Assembly (NCBI RefSeq): GCF_029633865.1
Contig: NC_079220.1
Location: 56,705,356-56,769,355 of the forward strand
Source: Lampris incognitus
Lineage: Eukaryota > Chordata > Actinopteri > Lampriformes > Lampridae
Length of the DNA stretch: 64,000 bases
Direction of reading: 5' to 3'
Below are positions 12,170-61,737 of the stretch, one piece after another. The notes beneath the pieces were generated by a model. It was not told the DNA's origin, did not search any database, and was given only the letters and a program-made list of their open reading frames with translations. Position numbers and translations under genes: made by a program. Within the stretch, counting starts at the first letter, position 1, and each line of letters begins with the position of its first letter.

Positions 12170-12430
12170 CACCTGTTAACCTCCGGCTTGGTCAGGCGTC
12201 CCAACAGACACAATTGGCTGTGTCTGCGGGTGGGAAGCTGGATGTGGGTATGTGTCCTGGTCGCTGCACTAGTGCCTCCTCTGGTCAGTCGGGGCGCCTG
12301 TTCGGGGGGGGGGGCTAGGGGGAATAGCTTGATCCTCCCACATGCTACATCTCCCTGGCTAAACTCCTCACTGTCAGGTGAAAAGTAGCTGGCGACCCCA
12401 CATGTATCGGAGGAGACGTGTGGTAGTGGA
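12170..12430 (+). mobile_element. tRNA-derived SINE, family A, copy 1 (5'-truncated)
   Basis: It shares the family A body: a CTCCGGCTTGGTCAGGCGTC segment, a GTGTCTGCGGGTGGGAAGC block, a G-rich GGGGGAATAG block and the CACTGTCAGGTGAAAAG block. The tRNA-like head is missing. It lies between the RTE-like fragment and the gypsy-like remnant, apparently inserted into retroelement debris. Confidence 0.7.
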
Positions 12431-26905: not shown

Positions 26906-28535
26906 CAGTGCATCCGGAAAGTATTCACAGTCCTTCACTTTCCCCACATTTTGTTATGTTACAGCCTTATTCCAAAATGGATTAAAGTCCTTTTTTTCTC
27001 ATCAATCTACACACAATACCCCATAATGACAAAGTGAAAAAGGTTTTGTAGACATTTTTGCAAATTTATTAAAAATAAAAAACTGAAATATTGCATGTAC
27101 ATAAGTATTCACACCTTTTACTCAGTACTTGGTTGAGGCACCCTTGGCAGCGATTACAGCCTCAAGTCTTCTTGGGTATGAAGCGACAAGCTCGGCACAC
27201 CTATATTTGGGGTATTTCTCCCATTCTTCTCTGCAGATCCTCTCGAGCTCTGTAAGGTTAGATGGGGAGCGTCGCTGCACAGCTATTTTCAAGTCTTTCC
27301 AGAGATGTCAATGGGGTTCAAGTCTGGGCTCTGGCTGGGCCACTCAAGGACATTCACAGACTTGTCCCGAAGCCACTCCTTCGTTGTCTTGGCTGTGTGC
27401 TTAGGGTCGTTGTCGTGTTGAAAGGTAAACCTTCGCCCCAGTCTGAGGTCCTGAGCGCTCTGGAGCAGGTTTTCATCAAGGATCTCTCTGTACTTTGCTC
27501 CATTCATCTTTCCCTCGATCCTGACTAGTCTCCCAGTTCCTGCCGCTGAAAAACATCCCCACAGCATGATGCTGCCACCATCCTTCACTGTAGGGATGGT
27601 ATTAGCAAGGTGATGAGAGGTGCCTGGTTTCCTCCAGACGTGACGTTTGGCATTCAGGCCAAAGAGTTCAATCTTGGTTTCATCAGACCAGAGAATCTTG
27701 TTTCTCAGGGTCTGAGTCCTTTAGGTGCTTTCTGGCAAACTCCAAGCGGGCTGTCTTGTGCCTTTTACTGAGCAGAGGCTTCCGTCTGGCCACTCTACCA
27801 TAAAGGCCTGATTGGTAGAGTGCTGCAGAGATGGTTGTCCTTCTGGAAGGTTCTCCCATCTCCGCAGAGGAACGCTGGAGCTCTGTCAGAGTGACCATCG
27901 GGTTTTTGGTCACCTCCCTGACCAAGACCCTTCCCCCCCGATTGCTCAGTTTGGCTGGGCGGCCAGCTCTAGGAAGAGTCCTGGTGGATCCAAACTTCTT
28001 CCATTTACGAATGATGGAGACCACGGTGCTCTTCGGGACCTTCAAAGCTGTAGACATTTTTTTGTGCCCTTCCCCAGATCTGTGCCTCGATACAATCCTG
28101 TCTTGGAGGTCCACAGACAATTCCTTTGACTTCATGGCTTGGTTTCTGCTCTGACATGCACTGTCAACAGTGAGACCTTATATAGACAGGTGTGTGCCTT
28201 TCCAAATCATGTCCAATCAATTGAATTTACTAGAGGTGGACTCCAATCAAGATGTAGAAACATCTCAAGGATGATCAGTGGAAACAGGATGAACCTGAGC
28301 TCAATTTTGAGTGTCATAGCAAAGGGTGTGAATACTTATGTACATGCAATATTTCAGCTTTTTATTTTTAATACATTCGCAAAAATTTCTACAAAACCTT
28401 TTTCACTTTGTCATTATGGGGTATTGTGTGTAGATTGATGAGAAAAAAAAGGAATTTAATCCATTTTGGAATAAGGCTGTAACATAACAAAATGTGGGGA
28501 AAGTGAAGGGGTGTGAATACTTTCCGGATGCACTG
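26906..28535 (-). mobile_element. Tc1-like DNA transposon, end-to-end copy
   Basis: It is flanked by TA on both sides and bounded by inverted CAGTGCATCCGGAAAGTATT termini. The inverted repeats are long, about 215 bp (26906-27120 and 28321-28535), and nearly identical. Each has an outer and an inner AGTATTCACA-type motif, the IR/DR arrangement of fish Tc1 elements. It contains one transposase gene on the minus strand, which is broken. At 1630 bp it is the length expected for an autonomous Tc1 element. Confidence 0.93.
27122..28135 (-). pseudogene. Tc1-like transposase, two frameshifts
   Basis: The N-terminal part (28135-27683) has the paired-type helix-turn-helix DNA-binding region, with MKSKELSVDLQDRIV and a GRPAKLS hook. 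The catalytic part follows in another frame, with SGGS-like [26 protein letters not shown] and [11 protein letters not shown]. Compared with intact fish Tc1 transposases, the frame shifts once near 27700 and again near 27300, just after the DLNPI segment. The last segment runs to a TGA at 27122-27124. Each break looks like a loss of one or two bases, so the protein cannot be made from this copy. Confidence 0.88.
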
Positions 28536-30950: not shown

Positions 30951-42189
<11,239 letters not shown>

Positions 42190-44128
42190 CTGCGAAGAGA
42201 GCCGAGGTGAGGGACTCTCCAGACACCATGAGAGAGGTCTTGATCTATCACAGATCAGTTGGTCAAACACCAAACAAAACACACAGAGGCTTTCTGTTTC
42301 CCGAGTACCGAAACGGGCCTCACCGTGCAGTGCAGTTACAAATGCACATTTTCCACCTTTGCAACTTGCCACTCTAAGTGATTTGAGAGTCAGCTTCCTT
42401 GCCAAAGTGGAAATCGCACTCATTTGGTTATTTATTTTCTATTTAAAAAAAAAAACCCTAACAACCTTCAATTCACAATTTGGACAATTCTCAGCACATA
42501 TTTTACCAATCTGAAGCTTTAGGTCAACCAGATTTGACATGCAACTGATTTTAAAACACTCAAACCTGATTTTGTATTCGCAAATATTCCATGTTGTCCT
42601 CTATCAACCCTAAAATGAGAAAGAAAAGAAACCTCCCTCAACGGAAAACAGCTGTCATTACGTTAATGAACTGATCTAACTCAAACATATGTATAACGTA
42701 ACACGGAAAAGGGGGACGTGGCTGCGGGGAGTGCTTTATGTGGGAGTACGGACACGTCCAACTTCAGATGAGATGTCGCCAATTACAAACAATGGTCGTT
42801 CAGCCAAACCTCAATTAAGGGAAAGCAGGATGTCCTGGTTATAAAAGAGGTCAGGAATCAGGAGCACTTCGTCATTTCATTGCATGTACTTGTTTACATA
42901 AAATGAAATGAAATATCGTTTCCCCAGCCCACAGCAGCGCAACACAAAGACAAAAACACATCTAAAAACTACAAGAACACACATATCAAACTATTAAAAA
43001 AAAATCACTGTCCAGGAGAGCGAACGCCAGGATGACTGTCATCGAACAATGACAATGACTGTCGGAACTGCTGGTCTGCATGGGCTTGCAGTTAGCTTAG
43101 CCTGCCCTGCTTCCACGTCCTGTCAGACCGCCCTCGGTGTTTCCTCTTCGGGCACAGCCCCAGGTAGGGCCGTGGTCCTTGGGCCCACAGGACGCAGCAG
43201 ACCAGGCTCTCCAAAGCCAATCCAGCACCAGCTCCCCCAGCCAGCAAACCAAGATACACTTAGACGCGCAGACGTGGACAAAGACGCTGCATGGACGGTA
43301 CTGGGTGAGGCCGCTGCAAATGAAAGTTCAGGCCACCATCTTCCCACACTGGTACTGGGTGAGGCCGCCGCAAAGGTGAAATCGCGCCGCCATCTTCCCA
43401 CACCAGAAGCAGCAAGGTCATCCTTGGACCAATGGATCCGGATTAAATCAGTGTCCCCTGTAACCAGTGTCCTTAACATGACAGTGTTCCCCTCCCGACT
43501 GTAGCTCACACTACTAAGGGATCAAGCCCCACAAAATTACATTAAGTGAGCATTGTATGAGCGAGTAACCATTTTTGTTTTTGATTTCCTGTCAAAGTTA
43601 AGACAACTCATTCTGATTTTATTCATAATCCCAAACCACAGTTGCCGTCTCAGAGGGCTTTTACATTCACACAGTGGAAAAACAGGTCGATATCGTGAAA
43701 GACAATAGATGACATCCTCTATCCTCATACCCTCACTTTAGCTGCACGTTGAACAGATGAAAAATGTTCAGAACGTTTTGGCTTGAGGCAAGAATCCCTT
43801 TTCCTCACGTTGACGTCTGAATCTTTGCATGTTGTGTTAGTATCTCATATGAGCACCGTAGTGCTGAAAAACGCCTTTGACACATGATCATTGTGCAGAC
43901 ATTTTAACTCCAAGTAAAAAGTCTTCAAAATCTGGTTTCTAAGCTAAACACAAAATGCAATGCTTAGGTGAGTCGCAAACAGGTGATTGCACCACAACTA
44001 CATCAAAAACTGCAAATGAGTAACTGCAATGTGAAGCGATACCACTGGAGGTGCTCCCTGAAGAGGGTTCACCTCCTCTTCAACTGTTTCACTTGAGATT
44101 TGAGGGCTTGTGTACATGGGCTGTAACC
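42190..44128. other. Upstream of or within slc17a7 intron 1; no gene seen
   Basis: This is on the 5' side of the first visible slc17a7 exon. I searched the minus strand for a short exon encoding an ATG plus about 20 residues and ending in a donor of matching phase, without success. A GC-richer open frame at 43049-43504 (+) contains two similar GEAAA-plus-HLPTP segments and could be a dispersed repeat; no family was recognised. Confidence 0.5.
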
Positions 44129-44351
44129 TTTCACATAGGAACTGGTTCACATAGGCGCTGGTTCACATAGGAGCTGGTTCACATAGGAGCCGCTGGTTCA
44201 CATAGGAGCCGGTTCACATAGGAGCTGGTTCACATAGGAGCCGCTGGTTCACATAGGAGCCAGTTCACATAGGGGCTGACTCGCATAGGAGCCGGTTTAC
44301 ATAGGAGCTGACTCACATAGAAGCCGGATCACATAAGAGCCGGTTCACAAA
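44129..44351. repeat. 16-bp minisatellite, about 12 copies
   Basis: The unit is TGGTTCACATAGGAGC, with insertions such as GAGCCGCTGG and variants such as GACTCACATAGAAGC. It is the first array of the minisatellite cluster running to 61.7 kb. Confidence 0.85.
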
Positions 44352-44428
44352 GATTAATTGTCTAAATGCTTTCCTCTACTTACATCACACTGACGCAAAA
44401 ACGTACAATTTCTCGCACACAAGTACTC

Positions 44429-44443
44429 ACACACACACACACA

Positions 44444-44506
<63 letters not shown>

Positions 44507-44575
44507 TCTCTCTCTCACTCTCTCTTGCTCTCTCTCTCTCTCACTCTCTCTCGCTCTCTCTCACACTCACACAAA
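44429..44575. repeat. (CA)n(CT)n microsatellite
   Basis: A short CA run is followed by a long, almost uninterrupted CT run with a few CTTG and CTCG breaks. Confidence 0.92.
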
Positions 44576-44920
44576 GAGACACATATGTTTAGGTCATGAC
44601 TGACTCGGTGTCACACAGTGTGGGAGCAGCTGTCACCGGCCCAGCCCTTAGGAAGACTGGAAGAGAGACAGCCATGAGAGCCCATTTCCCCCAGTGTCCT
44701 GTCCCTCACAGTACCCGAGACCTGCTGCCATGCTGATACTGTCCACAGTCTCAGATACAAACGGACTCTGGAGACGGACCCCTGACCACAACACACTGCA
44801 CATGTCTTCTGATCACCCAGCTTCGTGGACCATGTCAGAGAGCACACACGTCCTCATTTTTGCAAGTGAGAGACGTTCTCACTCCATATGTTGAACTTGG
44901 ACTGACCGTAACATTGACCC

Positions 44921-45136
44921 TGAACCAAACCATGACCCTAACTACCTGTCTACTATGAATCTGACTGGCTATATGAACCAAACCATGACCCTAACTACCT
45001 GTCTACCATGAATCTGACTGGATATATGAACCAAACCATGACCCTAACTACATGTCTACCATGAATCTGACTGGATATATGAACCAAACCGTGACCCTAA
45101 CTACATGTCTACCATGAATCTGACTGGATATATGAT
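44921..45136. repeat. 53-bp minisatellite, about 4 copies
   Basis: The unit contains TGAACCAAACCATGACCCTA, ACTACCTGTCTACCATGAAT and CTGACTGGATATA. Copies are nearly identical; the CATGACC block recurs at 53-base spacing. Confidence 0.9.
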
Positions 45137-45640
45137 ACAACAGCCCGGGACATCATGTACAATGTTGATCGATCTGGGAACATTTCTCACTTCCAGGAAT
45201 CAGGAGAGCAGAGTGTACAGCATACACCAACATTAAGACATGAGAGGAAGAAAGACAAGGAGAGGACACAAGAGAAACAAGCCATTGAAGAACAAAAAAA
45301 AAAAAGAGAAACAACCGAAGGAGCAGAGAAACAGTGGAAAAAAGATTGAAACATAAAAACACACTTGGATTTCACCGTTGCAATTTTCAACTCAAAGGGG
45401 AAGTGGCTTTGAATGTCCTGGTAAACACCAACAAATGCTTTTATATAGATTTTTTATTATTTCTATGACATCCTGGCATTTGATAAGAGTAAGAATTAAA
45501 ACCACATTGATCATGATAATGTAGAAAATGGGTGTTTATGTGCAAGCGCAATATTCAGCAACTAACTGTAACGGCATTTGAAGATTTGTACAAATTCCTA
45601 TTCATCCCGTTCATCCTTACCTACAAACACATTATGACAT

Positions 45641-46583
45641 TTGCCTCTCACTCCTCAGACCATGGTGCAACATCTACCTCTCACACCTCAGGGCATGGTG
45701 CAACATCTACCTCTTACTCCTCAGGGCATGGTACAACATCTACCTCTCACTCCTCAGGGCATGGTGCAACATCTACCTCTCACTCCTCAGGGCATGGTGC
45801 AACATCTACCTCTCACACCTCAGGGCATGGTGCAACATCTACCTCTTACTCCTCAGGGCATGGTACAACATCTACCTCTCACTCCTCAGGCCACGGTGCA
45901 ACATCTACCTCTCACTCCTCAGCGCATGGTGAAACATCTACCTCTCACTCCTCAGGGCATGGTACAACATCTACCTCTCACTCCTCAGGGCATGGTGCAA
46001 CATCTACCTCTCACTTCTCAGGGCATGGTACAACATCTACCTCTCACTCCTCAGGGCATGGTGCAACATCTACCTTTCATGCCTCAGGGCATGGTGCAAC
46101 ATCTACCTCTCACTCCTCAGGGCATGGTGCAACATCTACCTCTCACTTCTCAGGGCATGGTGCAACATCTACCTCTCACTCCTCAGGGCATGGTGCAACA
46201 TCTACCGCTCACTCCTCAGGGTATGGTGCAACATCTACCTCTCACTTCTCAGGGCATGGTGCAACATCTACCTCTCACTCCTCAGGGCATGGTGCAACAT
46301 CTACCTCTCACTCCTCAGGGCATGGTGAAACATCTACCTCTCACTCCTCAGGGCATGGTGCAACATCTACCTCTCACTCCTCAGGGCATGGTGCAACATC
46401 TACCTCTCACTCCTCAGGGCATGGTGAAACATCTACCTCTCACTCCTCAGGGCATGGTACAACATCTACCTCTCACTCCTCAGGGCATGGTGAAACATCT
46501 ACCTCTCACTACTCAGGGCATGGTGCAACATCTACCTCTCACTCCTCAGGGCATGGTGCAACATCTACCTCTCACTCCTCAGG
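45641..46583. repeat. 33-bp minisatellite, about 28 copies, open frames
   Basis: The unit is TCTCACTCCTCAGGGCATGG followed by TGCAACATCTACC. Since 33 is a multiple of three, each frame gives an 11-residue repeat: SHSSGHGATST in one and MVQHLPLTPQG in another. Variation is mainly GTGCAAC, GTACAAC or GTGAAAC. A four-unit block (132 bp) is duplicated near 45681 and 45813. One frame stays open to 47059 through unique sequence with a coiled-coil-like EDKDLRKELQELRVQ segment and FGLQRFAGSD; the latter reminds me of transposon-encoded proteins of fish (PIF/Harbinger-like), unverified. I do not regard it as a demonstrated gene. Confidence 0.92.
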
Positions 46584-47350
46584 TCTGTAGCAGACCCTTC
46601 TCCACTGATCAACGACCCCTGGTGGGCGAAGAAGGCTTGTTAAAGGTGCTACACCGACGCTGTCTGACTGGAGTGGCTATACTGCTGAGACACCACGGAC
46701 GGCGCAGTGTGTGGGAGAGAGCAAAACAGCCCGTTGAGCCGGTCCCTCCTGAGGAGCAACACAATAGTGCAAGGGATCACGACCACTGCTCTGTCCCTGA
46801 ACTGTCTGCTCTGGACATGTCCTCGTCATCGGTAGAAGACAAAGACCTGAGAAAGGAGTTGCAGGAGTTGCGTGTGCAGCGAGAGTTTGGGTTACAGCGG
46901 TTTGCAGGCTCCGATTTAATTTTGGGAGATTTCTGTTTTTCATACATTTTAGAGAATTTTAGAATTCATACATTTCAGAATTTACCAGAAAGTATAAAAT
47001 TACAAGTAAAGGTTATGAGAAAATCTGCAAAGCAGTTCCCATTGCCTTACTCTGACTGAATCAAAGCAGTATGCAGTTTTATTTGATTTCACCTTCTTTG
47101 CCTTCTCTGAGAGCTGGTGATGTAATTGCGTGGTGTTATTGTTTCGCCATCTGCTGGCGTGGCATGCACACTACAGCGTCTTCCCTCGTTCTTTGCGGAT
47201 CCGTGTGCATGCGGATCGTATTCAAAACGATGTCGTCTGAACGCAGAACTTTTGTAAAACGCAAAGGAAAAACTCTTCCGTTTTTAGCGAGACCGTCTAG
47301 CAGTTTAAAAGTTCAGCTAGTTTTTGGTGATGTTGGGCTATCAGCGGCTC

Positions 47351-47929
47351 TTTGTCCATGTGGTGGGTAGTCCATTTGTCCATGTGGTGGGTAGTTCATT
47401 TGTCCAAGTGGTGGGTAGTTCATTTGTCCAAGTGGTGGGTAGTTCATTTGTCCATGTGGTGGGTAGTTCATTTGTCCATGTGGTGGGTAGTTCATTTGTC
47501 CAAGTGGTGGGTAGTTCATTTGTCCATGTGGTGGGTAGTTTATTTGTCCATGTGGTGGGTAGTTCATTTGTCCATGTGGTGGGTAGTTCATTTGTCCAAG
47601 TGGTGGGTAGTTCATTTGTCCATGTGGTGGGTAGTTCATTTGTCCAAGTGGTGGGTAGTTCATTTGTCCAAGTGGTGGGTAGTTCATTTGTCCATGTGGT
47701 GGGTAGTTCATTTGTCCATGTGGTGGGTAGTTCATTTGTCCATGTGGTGGGTAGTTCATTTGTCCATGTGGTGGGTAGTTCATTTGTCCATGTGGTGGGT
47801 AGTTCATTTGTCCATGTGGTGGGTAGTTCATTTGTCCATGTGGTGGGTAGTTCATTTGTCCATGTGGTGGGTAGTTCATTTGTCCATGTGGTGGGTAGTT
47901 CATTTGTCCATGTGGTGGGTAGTTCATTT
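47351..47929. repeat. 24-bp minisatellite, about 24 copies
   Basis: The unit is TTTGTCCATGTGGTGGGTAG plus TTCA, with CATG/CAAG as the main variant. The minus strand reads as an 8-residue repeat MNYPPHGQ or MNYPPLGQ. Copies are almost identical over 579 bp. Confidence 0.95.
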
Positions 47930-48029
47930 CAAGCTCTTTTATATTTTGTTTATATCGAGCAATTCCACACAGCAGAACAGAGAACTCAGGAGAGAGGCCA
48001 TCTGTGTGCTGCAACCTGTCTACTCTAAC

Positions 48030-48129
48030 CACACACACACACACACACATACACACGCACACGCCACACACGCACGCATGTGCACGCACACACACATGCA
48101 CACGCCACATACACACACGTGCACGCACG

Positions 48130-48165
<36 letters not shown>
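48030..48165. repeat. CA-rich microsatellite with CACG interruptions
   Basis: (CA)n runs alternate with ACGCACGCA and CATGCACACGCC segments and end in a pure (CA)n run at about 48133-48163. Confidence 0.92.
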
Positions 48166-48166
<1 letters not shown>

Positions 48167-48689
48167 TGTACACACAAGTTGTACAGATATATTTTTACCC
48201 TCAACAAAATGTGCAGCACACGTTGAGAGAAGTGCTAACGTTAATGCAGGTGTATTTAGCTGGGTGCACGTGCGAGCTTGTGAATGTGAGGACGCAGGGA
48301 CACAGACGCGTGTCAGGCTCCCGGTTTCCATCGGGTTGATCCATTTAGCCAGTGAGCTGGAGAACAGTGTGGAGAAGCAGGCGGGATCACCACAAGGATT
48401 TGTTCCATGTGATGGGGACAGTTGCATCTGAGGGAGGTGAATCACATTTGAGCTTTAACATGCCATTTAAGGCAGCGTTTGCTTTCTGGATGTTGCCCTT
48501 TTTTATTTCCAGCCACACAAAAGTCCTCCGGGATGAACACTTTCTGTCCCGCAGGCTCCAGGCACGTCTCAGCTGCAAGATAACTTCTTCACTCCAGCTC
48601 ACACAAGACACGTCACATTCTGACTGTGGTCAATTATTGATGTGTTTTATGCTGATGAAATATTCAGTCCTGCTCATACACCATACACT

Positions 48690-48690
48690 G

Positions 48691-48778
<88 letters not shown>

Positions 48779-48783
48779 GTCTA

Positions 48784-48838
<55 letters not shown>
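48690..48838. repeat. (CTAT)n-(CTGT)n tetranucleotide microsatellite
   Basis: About 22 pure ATCT units are followed by about 13 GTCT units. The two-motif structure arises from one substitution spreading through part of the array. Confidence 0.95.
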
Positions 48839-49001
48839 CTATTTGTCTGTCCATCCGCCCGCCTGCACCTTTGCCCCTCATCTATCTGTTTTCAATCCTT
48901 TCCATCTATTCATTCTCCTCCCTTTCTCTCTGCTGGTGGCTTGTACTCCCTGCCCCCTTTCAATAATGCAGATTCTATGTAATCCCTTCACACACTACAT
49001 A

Positions 49002-49365
49002 CATGCAGGCAGGCAGTACATGCAGCCAGGCAGTACATGCAAGCAGTCATTACATGCAAGCAGTTAGTACATGCAGGCAGGCAGTACATACAGTCAGTCA
49101 GTACATGCAGTCAGTAAATGCAGTCAGTCAGTACATGCAGGCAGTCAGTAAAGCAGGCAGTCAGTACATGCAGTCAGTCAATACATACAGGCAGGCAGTC
49201 AGTACATGCAGCCAGGCAGTACATGCAGGCAGCCAGTACATACAGTCAGTCAGTACATGCAGTCAGTCAGTACATGCATGCAGTCAGTACATGCAGGCAG
49301 TCAGTACATGCAGTCAGTCAATACATGCAGGTAAGCAGTCAGTACATGCAGTCAGTCAGTAAGAG
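49002..49365. repeat. Irregular 12-20-bp repeats of CAGTACATGCAGTCAGT
   Basis: Blocks of AGTACATGCA alternate with GGCAGGC, GTCAGTC and GCCAGGC linkers, giving units of variable length in multiples of about four bases. Confidence 0.88.
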
Positions 49366-49489
49366 CAGAGAGCAGCAGAACAATCAGTAATACACCAGCG
49401 CTTTACCATCAAAGGATATTGTCCCTATTAAGGACTTGTATTGCAATGCTTTGTAATTTTTAAGAGATTAAAGAGGCTGTGTCCCCCCC

Positions 49490-52400
49490 CTCCCTCTGAG
49501 TGGATGGGGGCGTGACTGAGCAAGCGGAGCGTGTGAGTGTTTATTGTGACTTTACAGTGTGAATGACTTTCAAACTTGTTTCTGTCTTTGTCTTTTTTGT
49601 AAATGTTGTAAATAGTGTGTATTGTAGGGTTTGTTTGTTTGTTTGGTGTGTAGATAGTGAGTTTTTAGGGGGGTTGTGTGTGTGTGTGTTTATAGTCGGT
49701 CAGCGTTTGCTGGTCGGCGTGCTAATCACCGGCATGGATCTGTCCAAACTGACCAGGAAGCACGGTATTAAGATCGTGCTGGCTTTCCCTTGTTCAGTGG
49801 AGGACTGCTGTCTGGCCGTGGGGCAGGTTGTGGGCTTTCTCTTGTTCAGTGGAGGACTGCTGTCTGTCCATGGGGCAGGTTGTGGGCTTTCTCTTGTTCA
49901 GTGGAGGACTGCTGTCTGTCCATGGGGCAGGTTGTGGGCTTTCTCTTGTTCAGTGGAGGACTGCTGTCTGTCCTTGGGGCAGGTTGTGGGCTTTCCCTTG
50001 TTCAATGGAGGACTGCTGCCTGGCCATGGGGCAGGTTGTGGGCTTTCTCTTGTTCAGTGGAGGACTGCTGTCTGGCCGTGGGGCAGGTTGTGGGCTTTCT
50101 CTTGTTCAGTGGAGGACTGCTGTCTGGCCGTGGGGCAGGTTGTGGTCTTTCCCTTGTTCAGTGGAGGACTGCTGTCTGGCCGTGGGGCAGGTTGTGGGCT
50201 TTCCCTTGTTCAATGGAGGACTGCTGCCTGGCCATGGGGCAGGTTGTGGGCTTTCTCTTGTTCAGTGGAGGACTGCTGTCTGTCCTTGGGGCAGGTTGTG
50301 GGCTTTCTCTTGTTCAGTGGAGGACTGCTGCCTGGCCATGGGGCAGGTTGTGGTCTTTCTCTTGTTCAGTGGAGGACTGCTGCCTGGCCATGGGGCAGGT
50401 TGTGGTCTTTCCCTTGTTCAGTGGAGGACTGCTGTCTGGCCGTGGGGCAGGTTGTGGTCTTTCCCTTGTTCAGTGGAGGACTGCTGTCTGGCCGTGGGGC
50501 AGGTTGTGGTCTTTCTCTTGTTCAGTGGAGGACTGCTGCCTGGCCATGGGGCAGGTTGTGGTCTTTCTCTTGTTCAGTGGAGGACTGCTCTCTGGCCGTG
50601 GGGCAGGTTGTGGTCTTTCTCTTGTTCAGTGGAGGACTGCTCTCTGGCCATGGGGCAGGTTGTGGTCTTTCCCTTGTTCAGTGGAGGACTGCTCTCTGGC
50701 CGTGGGGCGGGTTGTGGACTTTCTCTTGTTCAGTGGAGGACTGCTCTCTGGCCATGGGGCAGGTTGTGGTCTTTCTCTTGTTCAGTGGAGGACTGCTCTC
50801 TGGCAGTGGGGCAGGTTGTGGGCTTTCCCTTGTTCAGTGGAGGACTGCTCTCTGGCCGTGGGGCAGGTTGTGGGCTTTCCCTTGTTCAGTGGAGGACTGC
50901 TCTCTGGCCGTGGGGCAGGTTGTGGTCTTTCTCTTGTTCAGTGGAGGACTGCTCTCTGGCCGTGGGGCAGGTTGTGGTCTTTCTCTTGTTCAGTGGAGGA
51001 CTGCTCTCTGGCCATGGGGCAGGTTGTGGTCTTTCCCTTGTTCAGTGGAGGACTGCTCTCTGGCCGTGGGGCGGGTTGTGGACTTTCTCTTGTTCAGTGG
51101 AGGACTGCTCTCTGGCCATGGGGCAGGTTGTGGTCTTTCTCTTGTTCAGTGGAGGACTGCTCTCTGGCAGTGGGGCAGGTTGTGGGCTTTCCCTTGTTCA
51201 GTGGAGGACTGCTCTCTGGCCGTGGGGCAGGTTGTGGGCTTTCCCTTGGACAAGGTCCAATACACTTGGAGAGCAGAGTAGGTACTTTCAGATTACAGTT
51301 GGTACAGAGATAATTTACAGGGCTAAAAGATGTTTGGAGAGATTTGACAAGCAGCGTCTTGAGGAGGGCGGTTGGTCTGGGTTTAGACACTGCATTGTTT
51401 TTAATGGATTTAAGTTTTTTAAAACTACGTGAATTAACTCCTTTTTATCAAGCACTTTTTAAGACATGGACTTTATTTAAATGGAAGTGACTGGAGCCTA
51501 CAAGCTCTTTGCACTGGCTATTGGAAGAGCCTCTTATTAATGGGGCCAGAATGGATGTTCAGGACAGCACAATACCAGGTCCCACCAGCATGCTATGCAC
51601 TACTGGAGTGGTCACTCTGAGGAGGATAGTGGATGTAGCTGGTCCTGGACTGACCGAGACCCAGGCTGTGGTATTCTCTTCTCGGACTTAGATCTATTTG
51701 ACAGACCAGGAACATTTTAAACATGTGGATTGAGAGACTGACGGAGGAGGAGTTAATGATGCTGCAGGAGTACAGCGGTGGAGTGGACGCTCCTGGTGAT
51801 AATGATCCTTTTCCGGAGCTTTTTTTTCCCTCCAAATCTGGATGGAGTCTCAGGACCCCCTGTTAAACATAATGGACTGCAAATATGTGAACTTGTACAC
51901 AGTTAAAGGGAAAACTGTATAGAATTGTTGCGTGAAAGCTCCGAACAAACTTAAACTGGGTGGGAGAGTCGACACAGTGTGGAGACAAGAAGCAGATGTG
52001 GGCAGTGGGGTGAAACCAATATGGAGGCTTTTGTATAAACCACCTCTCAAGAAAAGGACTGGTGATTTACAATGGAGAATTCTCCGTGGTGCCATTGCAG
52101 CTTCAGGTGTCAACTGTCTTTCATTGTTTTGACAGACGAAAAGACTCTGCAACCTTTTGGTACACTGAAGAACGTTTCTCGACTGTTTGGTGAGAGGTGG
52201 TCTAACCTGTCTTGATTTTGGGAGATGGCTACAAGAAAATCTGCCGCCTCCGAGTGGCAGCTACTAAAACTGGTAGTAGGGAGGCCAAACTGTCCATCTA
52301 CAGTAGCAGGAAGAGCAGAGTGGAGAACAGGACAGGGCAGGAAGTACTTCCTGTTTTCATCTCAGTGGCGAAAGCCGGAGTCAGGGTTGACTGATTTTAG

Positions 52401-52620
52401 GTTCTTTAAAGGGAGGAGTAGCATGGGGGATTTCATCAGAGGTGGTGCTCCCATGATGCAGTTTGCTCTGTGGCAGGTGAGGAGTTAATGTTTAATACCA
52501 TTTCTTAGTCAGTGATGAAATTGTTCTTTTAATCGAGCCGTACAGTCATTTTTTGTCATGGAAAAAATGTTTGGATTTTTTTCAGTCTTTTTAATAAAGG
52601 CTTTTAAAAATAAAAAAAAC
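49490..52620 (+). mobile_element. Tx1-like LINE, internally deleted and expanded by a minisatellite
   Basis: The left part has a start MDLSKLTRKHGIKIVLAF followed by CSVEDCCLAVGQVVG, which resembles ORF1 of fish Tx1-clade LINEs. That second segment is the seed unit of the 52-bp array. To the right of the array, broken frames match the C-terminal end of a Tx1-type ORF2: LHWLLEEPLINGARMDV, GVVTLRRIVDVAGP, KPIWRLLYKPPLKKRTGDL, LQWRILRGAIA and later SIYSSRKSRVENRTGQ. The 3' end has AATAAAGGC near 52592 and an A-rich tail ending about 52619. The rest of ORF1 and most of ORF2 are absent. The clade name comes from memory of the family, not a search. Confidence 0.62.
49781..51248 (+). repeat. 52-bp minisatellite, about 28 copies
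   Basis: The unit is GGCTTTCTCTTGTTCAGTGG, AGGACTGCTGTCTGGCCGTG, GGGCAGGTTGTG. Since 52 leaves remainder one on division by three and the unit has no stop in any + frame, all three + frames stay open for about 1.5 kb, each with a 52-residue cycle. The left half carries CTGTCTGTCC, CTGTCTGGCC or CTGCCTGGCC; from about 50588 copies carry CTCTCTGGCC. Rare variants recur at multiples of 52, including a 364-bp spacing. G-rich blocks lie on the + strand. Confidence 0.95.
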
Positions 52621-53290
52621 CTCTCTCGCGCCCTCCCTCTCTCTCTCTCTCTCTCGCTCTCCTCCTGTCTCTCTTCTCATTATTCATGTCTCGCTCTGAC
52701 TCTTTCTGTCACCCTCTTAACCATGCATGTCCTTTTTACTTCCTTTAGTTCCTTTGCTCTTCTCTTTCTCTCTTCCTCTCTCTCTCTGTCTGTCTCTCTC
52801 TCTCACTTGCTGTCTCCCTCTCACTGCCTCCCTCTGTCTCCCGCTCTCTCTGTGTCTCTCTCCCTCTCTCTCCCTCCCCTCTCTTTCACTCTCTTGCCCT
52901 CTCCCTCTCTCTCCCTCTCTCTCCCTCCCCTCTCTTTCGCTCTCTTGCCCTCTCCCTCTCTATCACTCTCTCTCTCCCTCTCACTGCCTCTCTCTCCCGC
53001 TCTCTCTGTGTCTCTCTCTCCCTCCTCTCCCTCTCCCTCTCCCTCTCTTTCACTCTCTCCCCCTCTGTCGTGCTCTCTCTCTTCCTCTCTCCCTGTCTGT
53101 CTCTCTCTCTCACTTGCTGTCTCCCTCTCACTGCCTCCCTCTCTCTCCTGCTCTCTCTGTCTCTCTCTCTCCCTCCCCTCCCTCTCTCTCCCTCCCCCTC
53201 TCTCTCTCTCCCTCTCTGTTGAGCTCTCCCTCCCCTCCCTCTCTCTCCCTCTCCCTCTCTGTTGTGCTCTCCCCCCCCCCCCCTCTCTCT
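52620..53290. repeat. CT-rich simple repeat with larger duplications
   Basis: The stretch is nearly all pyrimidines on the + strand. Within it, blocks of about 60-300 bp recur (for example around CACTTGCTGTCTCCCTCTCA at about 52804 and 53111), so it has grown by segment duplication as well as slippage. Confidence 0.9.
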
Positions 53291-54100
53291 CATGAGCTGT
53301 AGGCGTGATTCCACGGTCTCTGTCCTCGCACTGCTCTCTCTAATCCGTCACAACATTCAGATTAGGATTACCAAAAATGATGCACTTCCGGAAATGAATA
53401 TGGAAGTACAAACTGGTGCGGGTGTGTTTCAGCATCCTTCCTGCCACACCACAGCTCCCTCTCTTCACTTTATCTGAAGAAACATTCATTTTGTTTTAAA
53501 ACAGTTTGCTCACACTTAGACATCAGTCATCCGTTTGTATCATTTATTTATAATGAGAAAATCACTTTAAATGATCATTATTTGTGGATTACAAATAGCT
53601 AATAACTAAATAAATACATTTTGTTATCTGTCATTTTTGGGAAATTAGGCATTACACATACATGTCATTTGGGCCGGTGCTCATTATTATCAAATGAAAT
53701 CGTGTCCGGTCAATTCCCCCGTCGTTGCAAGCATTGGTTCCTAACTATTGTGACATTTGACCTTTCAGATCTGGAAAATCTGTCTCAGTTCACTGGCAAA
53801 TGACTTCCTGTGACTAACTCGCTGCTGTTAGTGGCGGGAAGGCTGGTGTCTAGTTACTTTTCCTTGCTCCAACGCCAAATCCTGAGCACAGCTTGTATGA
53901 TGGGAGGTACATAATGTAGACACACATCAGCACCATCATCATCATCATCATCATCATAGAGACAGTAGACACACAAAAGAATCTGCTAAAAATCTTCTTT
54001 TCACTTGACAAACGATTTACACAAGGAGAGTATTCGACCAAATAGAAAAAGACAGTGTTCCTTATTTCTGCAGTCCCCCATTGGCACCCTGTGTGCTCTC
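53291..54100. other. Unique-looking sequence, no gene recognised
   Basis: Between the CT tract and the 11-bp array I see only short unconnected frames and a small (ATC)n run at about 53931-53957. Confidence 0.6.
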
Positions 54101-54107
54101 TTCGTCC

Positions 54108-54805
54108 TCCCTTTGTCCTCTCTGTCCTCTCTGTGTCCTCCCTGTGTTCTCTCTGAGTTCTCTGTGTCCTCTCTGTGTCCTCCCTGTGTCCTCTCTGTGT
54201 CCTGTCTGTGTACTCGCTGTGTCCTCCCTGTGTCCTCTCTGTGTCCTCTCTGTGTCCTGTCTGTGTCCTCTCTGTGTCCTCTCTGTGTCCTGTCTGTGTA
54301 CTCGCTGTGTCCTCTCTGTGTCCTGTCCACTCGCTGTGTCCTCCCTGTGTCCTGTCTGTGTACTCGCTGTGTCCTCTCTGTGTCCTCTTTGTGTACTCTC
54401 TGTGTCCTGTCTGTGTACTCGCTGTGTCCTCTCTGTGTCCTCTTTGTCCTGTCTGCGTCCTCTCTGTGTCCCCCCTGCGTCCTGTCTGTGCCCTCTCTGT
54501 CCTCTCTGTGTGCTGTTTGTGTCCTCTGTGTCCTGTCTGTGTCCTGTCTGTGCCCTCTCTGTCCTGTCTGTGTCCTGTCTGTGTCCTGTCTGTGCCTTCT
54601 CTGTCCTGTCTGTGTCCTGTCTGTGTCCTGTCTGTGCCTTCTCTGTCCTGTCTGTGTCCTCTCTGTGTGCTGTGTGCCCTCTCTGTGTCCTCCCTGTGTC
54701 CTGTCTGTGCCTTCTCTGTCCTGTCTGTGTCCTCTCTGTGTCCTGTCTCTGTCCTCCCTGTGTCCTCCCTGTGTCTTCCCTGTGTCTTCCCTGTGTCCTC
54801 TCTGC
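54108..54805. repeat. 11-bp minisatellite, about 60 copies
   Basis: The unit is CTCTGTGTCCT with variants CCCTGTGTCCT, GTCTGTGTCCT and GCTGTGTCCT. Deletions of two or three bases shift the phase in places. Three frames are open on each strand over most of its length; the minus strand reads as Thr, Gln, Arg, Gly, His, Glu and Asp repeats. Confidence 0.93.
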
Positions 54806-55115
54806 ACAACCTGTCATTATACAGGGTGATGAGTCTTCTGCGTCAGTCTGTCTTGCTTCAGTGTGAGCGAGTGATGCGAGAGACTCTCATTAAACCACCA
54901 GACAGATTGTGGCCTAACACCTACACATATGCTACCAGCTAACGAGGCTGGCCCGCAGCAGTAATTACTGTTAATTACAAAGACTTTCAAACTACAAACT
55001 CTCCGTGTACGTCTGTGTGTATGAGCGCGTCTGTCTGGATCTGGCAGACGAACTGGAAACTCACGCTGAACATGGCATGTTGAGGAAGAACATTAAATAG
55101 CACCGAGCTCAAGAA

Positions 55116-55236
55116 AATACAGGCAGAAAATACAGTAAGACAGGCAGAACATACAGTAAGACGGACAGAACATACAGTAAGACAGGCAGAACATACAGTA
55201 AGACGGACAGAAAATACAGTAAGACGGACAGAAAGT
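55116..55236. repeat. 21-bp minisatellite, about 6 copies
   Basis: The unit is ACATACAGTAAGACAGGCAG plus A, with GGCAG/GGACAG alternating. Confidence 0.88.
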
Positions 55237-55345
55237 TGATGTCAGTGTTATTTCTGACAAGCTCCATGTCATCTAGCATCGCTGCAAAAGGTCTGCAACA
55301 GTTGCTAACTGAGTGAAAGTATGAAAGTATTCCTGGGTAGACATG

Positions 55346-55436
<91 letters not shown>

Positions 55437-55949
55437 CTCTCTCTCTCTGTCTCTCTCTCTCACACACACACACACACTCACTCTCTCTCACACACACACT
55501 CACTCTCTCTCTCTCTCACACGCACACACACACACACACACACAAATTCACTCACTCTCAGACACACACACACACACACACACACTCAATCACTCACACA
55601 CATACTCACTCACTCACACACACACACTCGCTCACACACATACACTCACTCACTCACTCTCTCACACACATACACCCACTCACTCACTCACTCACACTCT
55701 CGCTCACACTCACTCACTCATACACACAAACACACACTCACTCACTCTCTCGCTCTCTCACACACACTCTCTCTCTCTCTCCCTCACTCACACACACACA
55801 CACACACACATACTCACTCACTCACATGCACACACATACACTCACTCACTCACCGACACACTCACTCAGTCACTTCCACACACACACTCACTCACACACA
55901 CACACACACTGACTCTCTCTCGCTCTCTCTCACACACACACACACACAA
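55346..55949. repeat. (CT)n and (CA)n/CACTCA composite microsatellite
   Basis: A CT run of about 90 bases is followed by CA, CACACT and CACTCACT mixtures up to about 55949. Confidence 0.94.
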
Positions 55950-55972
55950 AATTTGTCTCTCATCATTTGAAG

Positions 55973-57042
55973 GCTCATGTTACTATGTATCCCAGGTCAG
56001 CCTACATATTACTATGTATCCCAGGTCAGTCTACACATTACTATGTATCCAAGGTCAGCCTGGTCAGCCTACACGTTACTATGTATCCCGGGTCAGCCTA
56101 CACATTACTATGTACCCCAGGTCAGCCTACACGTTACTATGTATCCCAGGTCAGCCTATACGTTACTATGTATCCCAGGTCAGCCTATACGTTACTATGT
56201 ATCCCAGGTCAGCCTGGTCAGCCTACATGTTACTATGTATCCCAGGTTAGCCTACACGTGACTATTTATCCCAGGTCAGCCTACACGTTGCTATGTATCC
56301 AAGTTCAGCCTACACATTACTATGTATCTCAGGTCAGCCTACATGTTACTATGTATCCTAGGTCAGCCTACATATTACTATGTATCCCAGGTCAGCCTAC
56401 ACATTACTATGTATCCCAGGTCAGCCGACACGTTACTATGTATCCCAGGTCGGCCTACACATTACTATGTGTCCCAGGTCAGTCTACACATTATTATGTA
56501 TCTCAGGTCAGCCAACATGTTACTATGTATCCCAGGTCAGCCTACACATTACTATGTATCCCAGGTCAGCCTACACATTACTATGTGTCCCAGGTCAGTC
56601 TACACATTACTATGTGTCCCAGGTCAGTCTACTCATTACTGTGTATCCCAGGTCAGCCAACACATTACTATGTATCCCAGGTCAGCCTACATGTTACTAT
56701 GTATCCCAGGTCAGTCTACACATTACTATGTATCCCAGGTCAGCCTACACGTTACTATGTATCCCAGGTCAGTCTACACATTACTATGTATCCCAGGTCA
56801 GTCTGCACATTACTGTGTATCCCAGGTCAGCCAACATGTTACTATGTATCCCAGGTCAGCCTACACATTACTATGTATCCCAGGTCAGCCTACGCATTAC
56901 TATGTGTCCCAGGTCAGTCTACTCATTACTGTGTATCCCAGGTCAGCCAACACATTACTATGTATCCCAGGTCAGCCAACACATTACTATGTATCCCAGG
57001 TCAGTCTACACATTACTATGTGTCCCAGGTCAGTCTACACAG
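55973..57042 (+). repeat. 29-bp minisatellite, about 37 copies
   Basis: The unit is ATTACTATGTATCCCAGGTC plus AGCCTACAC, with AGTCTACAC, ACGTTACT and GTGTCCC variants and two ten-base insertions (GTCAGCCTGG) near 56058 and 56216. The unit length is not a multiple of three and lacks stops on this strand, so three frames remain open for about 1.1 kb. Confidence 0.95.
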
Positions 57043-57861
57043 TGCATCACCTCCTGTGCGCATGTTGAGAACCTGGTTGGTCTCAGCTGGCAACAATTAA
57101 TGATTGAGAAAGCATGAGCAAGCAGGAGTCCTATGGCCTATGGCATTCTACAATATCATAATTACAACAGGAAGAGGCATTCTACAATACCATAATTACA
57201 ATAGGAAGAGGGAAATGGGAGTTGGACTATGGCAGTTCAAAACAAATGTATTAACATGCATAAGGAAACCATGCAGCATACATTTAACTGTAGCACGTTA
57301 AAGCAAAGTGCTTACATCAAATATGTATTGTGGTGAAGTCATCAACTGGATTGTTTCAACAATGAGACTGTAGTGTTACAACAATCACTTGAGAAAATAC
57401 TGTATGAACCATAGACAACTGCATTGCAGAGACACCTGAAGACAACATGAATTATTTCACAGAGCTGGTCAGTTACAGCAATGTGTCCCCACCTAGGCCG
57501 AGATACTCTTAGAAACTGTATTTTTTAAACATCTGTTTTATTGGGTTTTGCAATTTTTTCAAACAACACAAACAAACAATCAAGCATATGCATCCCCTCC
57601 CTCCCTCTTTCCCTCCCTCCCTTCCATCCCCAGAGCAGAGATAAGCAGTAGGAAAAAATGGTAGTTCAGGTGACAGTCATATCAGAGACAGAATCTCATT
57701 GAAAGTCATTACAGTAACAACAGGGTTCCTGCAGTACATGCATGGACCCCTAAAGAAAACTAACAGCACACCACTGTATGTGCATGTGTGTGCATGTATG
57801 CAGAACATCCTGTCTAACCTTCTGGGGCTCTAGCTATCCCCATCCTCTGGAGCACAAATTG
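57043..57861. other. Unique-looking sequence, no gene recognised
   Basis: Only short open frames are present. A small CCCTCC-rich patch lies at about 57595-57632. Confidence 0.6.
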
Positions 57862-58457
57862 CAAGCTGTAGCATAGCACCACATGATGAGGGCTGAACTG
57901 AGACATGAGGCACAAGCTGTAGCATAACACCACATGATGAGGGCTGAACTGAGACATGAGGCACAAGCTGTAGCATAGCACCACATGATGAGGGCTGAAC
58001 AGAGACATGAGGCACAGGCTGTAGCATAGCACCACATGATGAGGGCTGAACAGAGACATGAGGCACAGGCTGTAGCATAGCACCACATGATGAGGGCTGA
58101 ACAGAGACATGAGGCACAGGCTGTAGCATAGCACCACATGATGAGGGCTGAACTGAGACATGAGGCACAAGCTGTAGCATAGCACCACATGATGAGGGCT
58201 GAACAGAGACATGAGGCACAGGCTGTAGCATAGCACCACATGATGAGGGCTGAACTGAGACATGAGGCACAAGCTGTAGCATAGCACCACATGATGAGGG
58301 CTGGACTGAGACATGAGGCACAAGCTGTAGCATAGCACCACATGATGAGGGCTGAACAGAGACATGAGGCACAGGCTGTAGCATAGCACCACATGATGAG
58401 GGCTGAACTGAGACATGAGGCACAGGCTGTAGCATAGCACCACATGATGAGGGCTGG
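57862..58457 (-). repeat. 51-bp minisatellite, about 12 copies
   Basis: The + strand unit is CAAGCTGTAGCATAGCACCA, CATGATGAGGGCTGAACTGA, GACATGAGGCA. Variants are CAAG/CAGG and AACTGAG/AACAGAG. The minus strand is open in three frames with a 17-residue repeat, one reading MWCYATACASCLSSALI. Confidence 0.95.
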
Positions 58458-58539
58458 ATTAAACCCAGGTCAGGACACAAGACTGTTGTTACCTTTCATA
58501 TTACATCCACTGAGCGCTCTTTGTAATCCCCTCATAAGA

Positions 58540-58640
58540 GGATGATGGAGAGAGCAAGAGAATGAGAGAGAGAGAGAGAGAGCGAGAGAGAGAATGAGAG
58601 AGAGAGAATGAGAGAGACAGCGAGACAGAGGTAGAAAAGG
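58540..58640. repeat. (GA)n-rich microsatellite
   Basis: A purine-rich GAGAGA tract with AATGAGAGAGA and CGAGAGAG interruptions separates the 51-bp and 64-bp arrays. Confidence 0.85.
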
Positions 58641-58736
58641 AGACTCCACTAGCAGATGTGTTACGTAATGCCAGAAGCTCTTGTTATTTATTCAGAGTCG
58701 TTTGCTAAAATCTTCCAATGTTCTGCTGAGTGTAAC

Positions 58737-59884
58737 ATGCTCTTGTCTCTTCTTCTCAACTCATCCTGCCCTTTTCTTCTTCTTCCTCGCTTCCCTACCA
58801 TGCTCTCGTCTCTTCCTCTCAACTTATCCTGCCCTGTCCTTCTTCCTCAACTTCCCTACCATGCTCTCGTCTCTTCCTCTCAACTTATCCTGACCTGTCC
58901 TTCTTCTTCCTCAACTTCCCTACCATGCTCTCGTCTCTTCCTCTCAACTTATCCTGTCCTATCCTTCTTCTTCCTCAACTTCCCTACCATGCTCTCGTCT
59001 CTTCCTCTCAACTTATCCTGTCCTGTCCTCCTTCCTCGCTTCCCTACCATGCTCTCGTCTCTTCCTCTCAACTTATCCTGTCCTGTCCTTCTTCCTCAAC
59101 TTCCCTACCATGCTCTCGTCTCTTCCTCTCAACTTATCCTGTCCTGTCCTTCTTCTTCCTCAACTTCCCTACCATGCTCTCGTCTCTTCCTCTCAACTTA
59201 TCCTGTCCTGTCCTTCTTCTTCCTCAACTTCCCTACCATGCTCTCGTCTCTTCCTCTCAACTTATCCTGTCCTGTCCTCCTTCCTCGCTTCCCTACCATG
59301 CTCTCGTCTCTTCCTCTCAACTTATCCTGTCCTGTCCTTCTTCCTCAACTTCCCTACCATGCTCTCGTCTCTTCCTCTCAACTTATCCTGTCCTGTCCTT
59401 CTTCTTCCTCAACTTCCCTACCATGCTCTCGTCTCTTCCTCTCAACTTATCCTGTCCTGTCCTTCTTCTTCCTCAACTTCCCTACCATGCTCTCGTCTCT
59501 TCCTCTCAACTCATCCTGCCCTGCCCTTCTTCTTCCTCAACTTCCCTACCATGCTGTCGTCTCTTCCTCTCAACTTATCCTGTCCTGTCCTTCTTCTTCC
59601 TCGCTTCCCTACCATGCTCTCGTCTCTTCCTCTCAACTTATCCTGTCCTGTCCTTCTTCTTCCTCGCTTCCCTACCATGGTCTCGTCTCTTCCTCTCAAC
59701 TCATCCTGTCCTGTCCTTCTTCTTCCTCACTTCTCAACTCATCTTGTCCTGCCCTTCTTCCTCCCTTCCCGAACATGCTCTCGTCTCTTCCTCTCAACTC
59801 ATCCTGTCCTGTCCTGTCCTTCTTCTTCCTCACTTCTCAACTCATCCTGTCCTGTTCTTCTTCCTCCTCACTTCCCTACCATGG
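58737..59884 (+). repeat. 60-64-bp minisatellite, about 18 copies
   Basis: The unit is CTCGTCTCTTCCTCTCAACT, TATCCTGTCCTGTCCTTCTT, CTTCCTCAACTTCCCTACCA, TGCT. Lengths of 64, 61 and 60 differ by the number of TTC triplets and CTC/CGC changes. A four-unit block of 249 bp is duplicated (first copy from about 59021, second from about 59270). The + strand is about 75-80% pyrimidine by eye. Confidence 0.95.
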
Positions 59885-60129
59885 CAGGGGAGAGTTTTGG
59901 AAAGATGGGTGCTAGCCGACCCGTTTATATGGTCAACGTGTCAGTCAAATGCATGATGGTAACTGAATATTTGAGTTTATCTTTTTTTATTATTATTATT
60001 TGAATGAACAGTGGTGTCTCCCCGCTCTCCTATCATGGCTCCCTCTTCACCCTCCTCCCTCAAGTGAACAGATTGGGTCTCAGTGGGACCATGTCACCTA
60101 GGGAGGCACCCTCCTCCCCCATTATGTTG

Positions 60130-60130
<1 letters not shown>

Positions 60131-60169
<39 letters not shown>
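60131..60169. repeat. (CT)n microsatellite
   Basis: A pure CT run of about 19 units. Confidence 0.93.
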
Positions 60170-60171
<2 letters not shown>

Positions 60172-60299
60172 CCTGTAGACAGACACACGCAGACATTATT
60201 CAAGCATCCACGCTCCATGACCTTCGTACACTTTCACTTTATAATCTAAAGACCACGAGAGCTCACATAGTGTAACACTGACTACACAGCCACACTGAA

Positions 60300-60301
<2 letters not shown>

Positions 60302-60340
<39 letters not shown>
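60302..60340. repeat. (CA)n microsatellite
   Basis: A pure CA run of about 18 units followed by ACATACACG. Confidence 0.93.
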
Positions 60341-60345
<5 letters not shown>

Positions 60346-60506
60346 ACCGTACCACCAGTGTAGTTATTAAATATGTATGATTCCTTGGCCACTGGAAAAA
60401 AAGGAGTGATTTATTCATCGTTCTAAAAGTGGCCGAACATAAAATAAAACTAAAATGGCAGGCAAGAGTTGTAACAAATAGCAACCACAGTCATGTTTTC
60501 TCCACT

Positions 60507-61737
60507 TATACTGAGGTATCTCTAAGTCCTCATATGATCTCCAGGTATCTTATACTGAAATATCTCTAAGTCCTCATATGATCTCCAGGTATCGTATACT
60601 GCGGTATCTCTAAGTCCTCATATGATATCCAGGTATCTTATACTGAGGTATCTCTAAGTCCTCATATGATCTCCAGGTATCTTATACTGAGGTATCTCTA
60701 AGTCCTCATATGATCTCCAGGTATCTTTTGCTGAGGTATCTCTAAGTCCTCATATGATCTCCAGGTATCTTATACTGAGGTATCTCTAAGTCCTGATATG
60801 ATATCCAGGTATCTTATACTGAGGTATCTCTAAGTCCTCATATGATCTCCAGGTATCGTATACTGCGGTATCTCTAAGTCCTCATATGATATCCAGGTAT
60901 CTTATACTGAGGTATCTCTAAGTCCTCATATGATCTCCAGGTATCTTATACTGAGGTATCTCTAAGTCCTCATATGATCTCCAGGTATCTTTTGCTGAGT
61001 TATCTCTAAGTCCTCATATGATCTCCAGGTATCTTATACTGAGGTATCTCTAAGTCCTGATATGATATCCAGGTATCTTTTGCTGAGGTATCTCTAAGTC
61101 CTCATATGATCTCCAGGTATCTTATACTGAGGTATCTTTAAGTCCTCATATGATCTCCGGGTATCTTATACTGAGGTATCTTTAAGTCCTCATATGATCT
61201 CCGGGTATCGTATACTGCGGTATCTCTAAGTCCTCATATGATCTCCGGGTATCTTATACTGAGGTATCTCTAAGTCTTCATATGATCTCCAGGTATCTTT
61301 TGCTGAGGTATCTCTAGGTCCTCGTATGATCTCCAGGTATCTTATACTGAGGTATCTCTAAGTCCTCATATGATCTCCAGGTATCTTATACTGAGGTATC
61401 TTTAAGTCCTCATATGATCTCCAGGTATCGTATACTGCGGTATCTCTAAGTCCTCATATTATCTCCAGGTATCTTATACTGAGGTATCTCTAAGTCCTCA
61501 TATGATCTCCAGGTATCTTATACTGAGGTATCTCTAAGTCCTCATATGATCTCCAGGTATCTTATACTGAGGTATCTCTAAGTCCTCATATGATCTCCAG
61601 GTATCTTATACTGAGGTATCTCTAAGTCCTCATATGATCTCCAGGTATCTTTTTCTGAGGTATTTCTAAGTCCTCATATGATCTCCAGGTATCTTATGCT
61701 GAGGTATCTCCAAGTCCTCATATGATTTCCAGGTATT
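60507..61737. repeat. 44-bp minisatellite, about 28 copies
   Basis: The unit is TGAGGTATCTCTAAGTCCTC, ATATGATCTCCAGGTATCTT, ATAC. Variants are TTTTGC for TTATAC, GATATCC for GATCTCC, GTATACTGCGG for TTATACTGAGG, and TCCGGG for TCCAGG. Three different variants (at 60593, 60725 and 60791) each reappear 264 bases later, that is six units. It contains stops in all frames. Confidence 0.95.

Follow-up and report, generated by a model that had tools for sequence, protein, structure and literature searches.

Why minisatellites crowd near chromosome ends, and whether the reason lies in a special sequence or in a special place, is a long-standing question, and it is raised in compact form by a 64,000-nucleotide stretch of the genome of Lampris incognitus (hereafter the window; positions 56705356-56769355 of contig NC_079220.1, here C13). 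Within it an interval of 17.6 kb, positions 44129-61737 in window coordinates, holds twelve minisatellite arrays following one another, noticed in an initial annotation that was made from the letters alone. We argue that the interval is probably a distal-chromosome minisatellite cluster, in which proximity to the end of the chromosome lets whatever sequence is there duplicate and expand. The argument draws on the density and diversity of the arrays, on genome samples and on one array whose 52-bp unit belongs to a dispersed retroelement-like sequence and can be followed elsewhere in the genome.

Tandem Repeats Finder (TRF) was run on the window for tandem repeats, with a sub-threshold of period at least 10 bp counted separately, and it recovered all twelve arrays, each in its place (Table 1). 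They sum to 8,510 bp, or 48.3% of the interval, which agrees with the initial estimate of about one half; total tandem-repeat cover reaches 10,524 bp (59.8%; 55.0% for period at least 10 bp only), and in dinucleotide shuffles of the same interval (n = 20) at most 51 bp were called tandem. At positions 1-44128 the cover is 5.1% (4.4% for period at least 10 bp only). That the rest of the window has far fewer arrays is therefore true of the window itself, but the contrast is overstated, the mean over samples of this genome being 18.6%. Comparison of the arrays all against all by BLAST agrees with the view that their sequences are unrelated, barring a weak match between E17 and H21 (E 0.04 in one comparison; 69.6% over 79 bp, E 0.00055 in another), and their GC content ranges from 0.39 to 0.58.

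As C13 is 60,220,590 bp long, the interval lies 3.45-3.47 Mb from its high end. The subtelomeric position supposed at the outset is accordingly acceptable in a broad sense, the interval belonging to the "last 5 Mb", which Linthorst 2020 (PMC7608644) names subtelomere; it lies, however, outside the last few hundred kb. At the other end of the contig, well inside it, a degenerate telomere-like repeat (GTTAGGGTTGG) was seen at C13:2.195-2.197 Mb.

How unusual such crowding is was judged on two scales. In the local region of 264 kb (the window with 100 kb on each side; merged arrays of at least 100 bp and period at least 10 bp counted) there are 44 merged arrays, 14 of them beginning inside the interval. 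At most 15 fall in any 17.6-kb span; when the 44 arrays were placed at random 20,000 times, no placement gave as many (best 14). The best 17.6-kb span clear of the interval has 21.6% cover. On the scale of the genome, 35 stretches of 2 kb were sampled, one of them containing 845 N. Mean minisatellite cover is 26.3% in the 11 stretches situated 2-5 Mb from contig ends and 15.5% in the 24 internal ones, and cover of at least 10% was found in 7 of the 11 versus 5 of the 24 (Fisher P 0.022; rank test P 0.043; one terminal stretch was assigned by position afterwards, and without it P is 0.015). The same density throughout the genome is thereby half ruled out: the interval is the peak of its 264 kb, yet the genome is repeat-rich generally. 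A subtelomeric satellite family was considered as the source and rejected, since 14 arrays from the sampled stretches have no unit in common either with each other or with 37 regional arrays.

These figures bear directly on one alternative, namely that slippage arrays build up neutrally in unconstrained non-coding DNA of a repeat-rich genome and that the cluster represents the upper tail of their distribution, with no regional process behind it. The mean cover over all 35 sampled stretches agrees with such build-up, as do arrays found in both flanking 100-kb regions and between the exons of an SLC6-type gene. We nevertheless think it unlikely, because random placement of the local arrays failed to match the cluster, because the samples are enriched for arrays near ends, and because tandem forms of one element, described below, occur only near ends among the matches listed.

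The origin of the units was approached through six arrays, C33, D24, F52, I29, J51 and L44, about 400 bp from each being compared with the genome (537 contigs; 1,481,484,146 bp) by a search that passes over very common words. For L44 (396 bp searched) and J51 (409 bp) this locus was the sole match. D24 and I29 each matched here and at one weak place about 5 Mb from a low contig end (69% at C24:4.92 Mb and 66% at C13:5.11 Mb, respectively). C33 has a second array of 334 bp at window coordinate 108180-108513, 62 kb away and about 95-97% alike; the flanks of the two copies are unrelated, and the search lists these two places only. For all of these five arrays the searches gave no dispersed single copies.

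The sixth unit, that of F52, turned out to lie within a retroelement-like sequence dispersed through the genome, and to this extent the initial picture of unrelated repeats had to be amended, as one of the units is not unique sequence. Among the matches listed the unit is single at 36 places and tandem at four; 40 of 76 first-look candidates were scored (40 of 232 in a search with one element copy), and the counts of places are lower bounds. Six single copies that were read have long common flanks and an open reading frame (ORF) starting MDLSKLTRKHGIKIV. The start of this ORF is conserved in several copies, its translation contains no Pfam family above the cut-off, and it may be the first ORF (ORF1-like) of an element without long terminal repeats (non-LTR). 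At the window locus the 5' part of the element runs straight into F52, so that the array is the next 52 bp amplified, and the adjoining downstream part present in single copies is missing; the ends of the duplicated piece have only GG in common. Inside the array one series of unit types is repeated in the same sequence, to a degree reached by none of 5,000 shuffles. Copies of the element were also seen in two clusters, at C18:10.1-10.5 Mb and C18:42.7-43.3 Mb, as if a repeated locus carries them.

The distribution of tandem and single forms of this piece bears most directly on the question of place or sequence. The window locus has 28 full units 3.47 Mb from the end; the other tandem loci are C13:1.133-1.135 Mb with 49 units, 1.13 Mb from the end, C2:151.81 Mb with about 1.8 units, 0.66 Mb from the end, and C1:3.05 Mb with about 1.7 units, 3.05 Mb from the end. 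Each of the four listed multi-unit loci is thus within 5 Mb of a contig end, a position shared by 2 of the 32 single-unit places (out of 36) whose distance to both ends is known. When a nine-member cluster on C18 is counted once, the single-unit figure becomes 2 of 24, for which Fisher's test gives P 0.0007, or 0.006 with all four places of unknown distance taken as terminal. Eight further loci were added by hand (with the C18:10-Mb group taken as one locus; one of the eight lies near an end) and were accepted as single-unit because their alignments span the unit and exceed the query stretch by no more than 37 bp; with them, 3 of 32 single-unit loci are terminal versus all four tandem ones (P 0.0006; 0.003 without the window locus). 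An element piece that is single at some places and tandem at others amounts to a natural experiment in which the sequence hardly varies, and it is quite possible, although we stop short of calling it probable, that position alone decides whether one retroelement segment stays single or goes tandem (about 2-49 units, less than 5 Mb from the end). If the pattern holds over all copies, position becomes separable from sequence and the test transferable to other genomes. No report of such a contrast, tandem near ends and single inside, at fish chromosome ends was found in open-licence literature by searches that were not worded exactly for it.

The two long F52 arrays stand at opposite ends of C13, run in the same direction relative to the ends and have a derived base in common, T at unit position 8, found in 17 of 28 units in the window, in 49 of 49 at the low end but absent from all six single copies that were read; exchange between chromosome ends would fit this arrangement. 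The element 5' parts of both loci are only 87% alike, which does not exceed their similarity to random copies, and the right flanks of the two arrays are unrelated, which together argue against recent copying of one array locus to the other. At C13:1.133-1.136 Mb about 12 tandem copies of a 5' monomer of about 31 bp were seen upstream of the 52-bp array, and the window has one.

The same observations have to be weighed for another account, according to which repeats are borne by the element itself: a subfamily with an already existing tandem 52-bp duplication would be kept mainly near ends, and the cluster would in part be imported. The unit boundary, identical at four loci, the T shared by the two long arrays and the tandem 5' monomers at the low-end locus are all consistent with it. 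We consider it improbable in view of the two array loci being, in their 5' parts, no more similar to each other than to random copies, of the downstream part of the element failing to adjoin any of the four tandem loci, and of the lack of dispersed single copies for the five other units searched, with the limit on common words given above.

Equally doubtful, in our estimation, is a hotspot of meiotic double-strand breaks like that at human MS32, where arrays would mutate at one end. Variant maps show nominal polarity in D24 (rho -0.50) and F52 (rho 0.40), as such a hotspot would have it, but four of the six arrays show none and no recombination motif is common to the arrays: PRDM9-type and chi motifs are absent from all twelve, and the human minisatellite core occurs with at most one mismatch in two of the twelve, F52 and K64. 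Other shared properties that might have served as a common cause were rejected as well. Hairpins failed because no piece (88-128 nt, + strand) folds beyond its own shuffles (DNA z -1.4 to 1.9), three-G quadruplex motifs are found in none of the twelve arrays, and a coherent strand asymmetry, as the R-loop idea implies, is contradicted by GC skew that is positive in six arrays and negative in six. An assembly artefact is very improbable: a 200-N run is found 33 kb past the window, and the assembly of tandem arrays is prone to error, but the window has zero N, the seven arrays that were mapped hold distinct unit variants in mostly irregular order, and units of C33 and F52 are found elsewhere with private variants.

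We return, therefore, to expansion favoured by the chromosome end. DNA near chromosome ends would suffer more breaks and repair synthesis, short duplications might then arise in any sequence present there, and arrays could grow and homogenise via slippage, unequal exchange or synthesis-dependent repair, partly blockwise as F52 suggests. The unit would come from the sequence, the instability from the position, and the persistence from weak constraint. More breaks and crossovers at fish chromosome ends are shown in stickleback (PMC11239493). The underlying cause may be meiotic breaks or replication, as in the hotspot and fork-stress ideas of the initial annotation, or the two together. The initial idea of a region that keeps generating tandem repeats gains support from the unrelated units taken together with the retroelement comparison.

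Several points weigh against this reading and account for the reserve with which it is put. Stickleback is another species, and the chromosome end is equated with the end of contig C13 by assumption. The terminal and internal samples are small (n = 11 and n = 24), and internal stretches carry long arrays too, 3 of the 24 being wholly tandem. The comparison of tandem and single copies was conceived after the list was seen, with few tandem loci and on lists of which 40 candidates each were scored, and the identical unit boundary of the four tandem loci may denote one prone subfamily. Block duplication is significant in F52 and not in five other arrays (one of six overall), and polarity of variant maps attains nominal P < 0.05 in two of six. 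Finally, two-G quadruplex motifs number 24 in F52, 7 in K64 and 1 in G11; being confined to these three, they are not common to all arrays.

Table 1. Minisatellite arrays and accompanying features of the window (window coordinates)
Feature	Unit (bp)	Description	Position	Strand	Method
Vesicular glutamate transporter gene		exon 2 to C terminus	30954..42191	-	
A16	16	13.4 copies	44130..44349	+	TRF
B53	53	4.1 copies	44921..45135	+	TRF
C33	33	28.7 copies	45637..46583	+	TRF
D24	24	24 copies, final ten units identical	47351..47929	+	TRF
E17	17	21 copies, degenerate	49000..49361	+	TRF
Retroelement-like sequence, 5' part		ORF start MDLSKLTRKHGIKIV	49526..49780	+	
F52	52	28.2 copies, duplicated multi-unit block	49781..51248	+	TRF
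G11	11 (or 42)	pyrimidine-rich	54089..54804	+	TRF
H21	21	5.5 copies	55119..55234	+	TRF
I29	29	36 copies	55980..57041	+	TRF
J51	51	11.7 copies	57862..58456	+	TRF
K64	64	249-bp higher-order period, degenerate tail	58736..59874	+	TRF
L44	44	28 copies	60505..61736	+	TRF

As to its genic surroundings, the cluster is non-coding DNA upstream of exon 2 (approximately 41940-42191, - strand, with a splice acceptor before 42191) of a vesicular glutamate transporter gene, which we take to be slc17a7. The window also contains a POLD1 exon on the + strand and an exon of the RAS family on the - strand, an order presumably resembling human 19q13.33, and beyond it, at about 80-91 kb in window coordinates, lies the SLC6-type gene (- strand; three exons above the Pfam cut-off and one below). 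Exon 1 of the transporter should be located between 42.2 and about 80 kb. No match to it was found in 42.2-64.0 kb, and a motif scan of the 264 kb gave five one-mismatch matches, none at 42.2-144 kb and none convincing; the exon may be in 64-69 kb, where 64001-69000 reads N, or it may have diverged. Expected in this range and unmatched up to 64.0 kb, it implies that the cluster is probably within intron 1 of the transporter gene, or otherwise just upstream of the gene. ORFs outside arrays (10 of the 75 listed; nine in 42.2-64.0 kb, five of them inside the interval) gave no Pfam family above the cut-off, and checks of the window for Rfam families, tRNA and phage DNA found nothing. Pieces of a Tc1/mariner-type transposase (Pfam DDE_3, HTH_Tnp_Tc3_2 and HTH_SB) occur at 27292-28177 on the - strand. 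A dispersed element of about 400 bp has six copies in the window, at 12172, 19776, 34170, 35646, 38729 and 40988, all to the left of the interval, and a sequence resembling it by eye follows the C33 copy at 108.5 kb.

Known systems resemble the locus in different respects. Genomes of codfishes (haddock) are rich in tandem repeats (PMC5894186), which makes them alike as fish genomes with high tandem-repeat density, but the units there are 1-10 bp, whereas minisatellites prevail here. In man, mouse and soybean it is well known that minisatellites can derive from transposable elements (reviewed in PMC9659126); the F52 unit, a piece of a dispersed element, is of this sort, unlike C33, D24, I29, J51 and L44, whose searches gave no dispersed source. 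For the comparison of element copies the closest precedent comes from Lathyrus sativus, where satellites derived from retrotransposons expand in primary constrictions (Vondrak 2019, PMC7004042), so that a dispersed element, a short unit and long arrays in one chromosomal zone come together. In Lathyrus, however, the LTR retrotransposons already carry short arrays, whereas the piece described here is mostly single-unit and belongs to one element only, and the zone of expansion is near chromosome ends instead of primary constrictions. For the cluster as a whole the nearest counterpart is human. VNTR-type (variable number of tandem repeats) structural variants are enriched 7.1-fold in the last 5 Mb of human chromosomes, the class above 60% GC with patterns longer than 15 bp is enriched 21-fold subtelomerically, and DLGAP2 and PTPRN2 are brain genes with a disproportionate number of VNTRs (Linthorst 2020, PMC7608644). 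The human subtelomeric repeats are GC-rich, unlike the arrays of Lampris with their 39-58% GC in a genome repeat-rich throughout; the two have in common terminal enrichment and a crowd of arrays in one gene (probably so here) less than 5 Mb from the end, and the cluster probably belongs to this known class, that of subtelomeric VNTR clusters.

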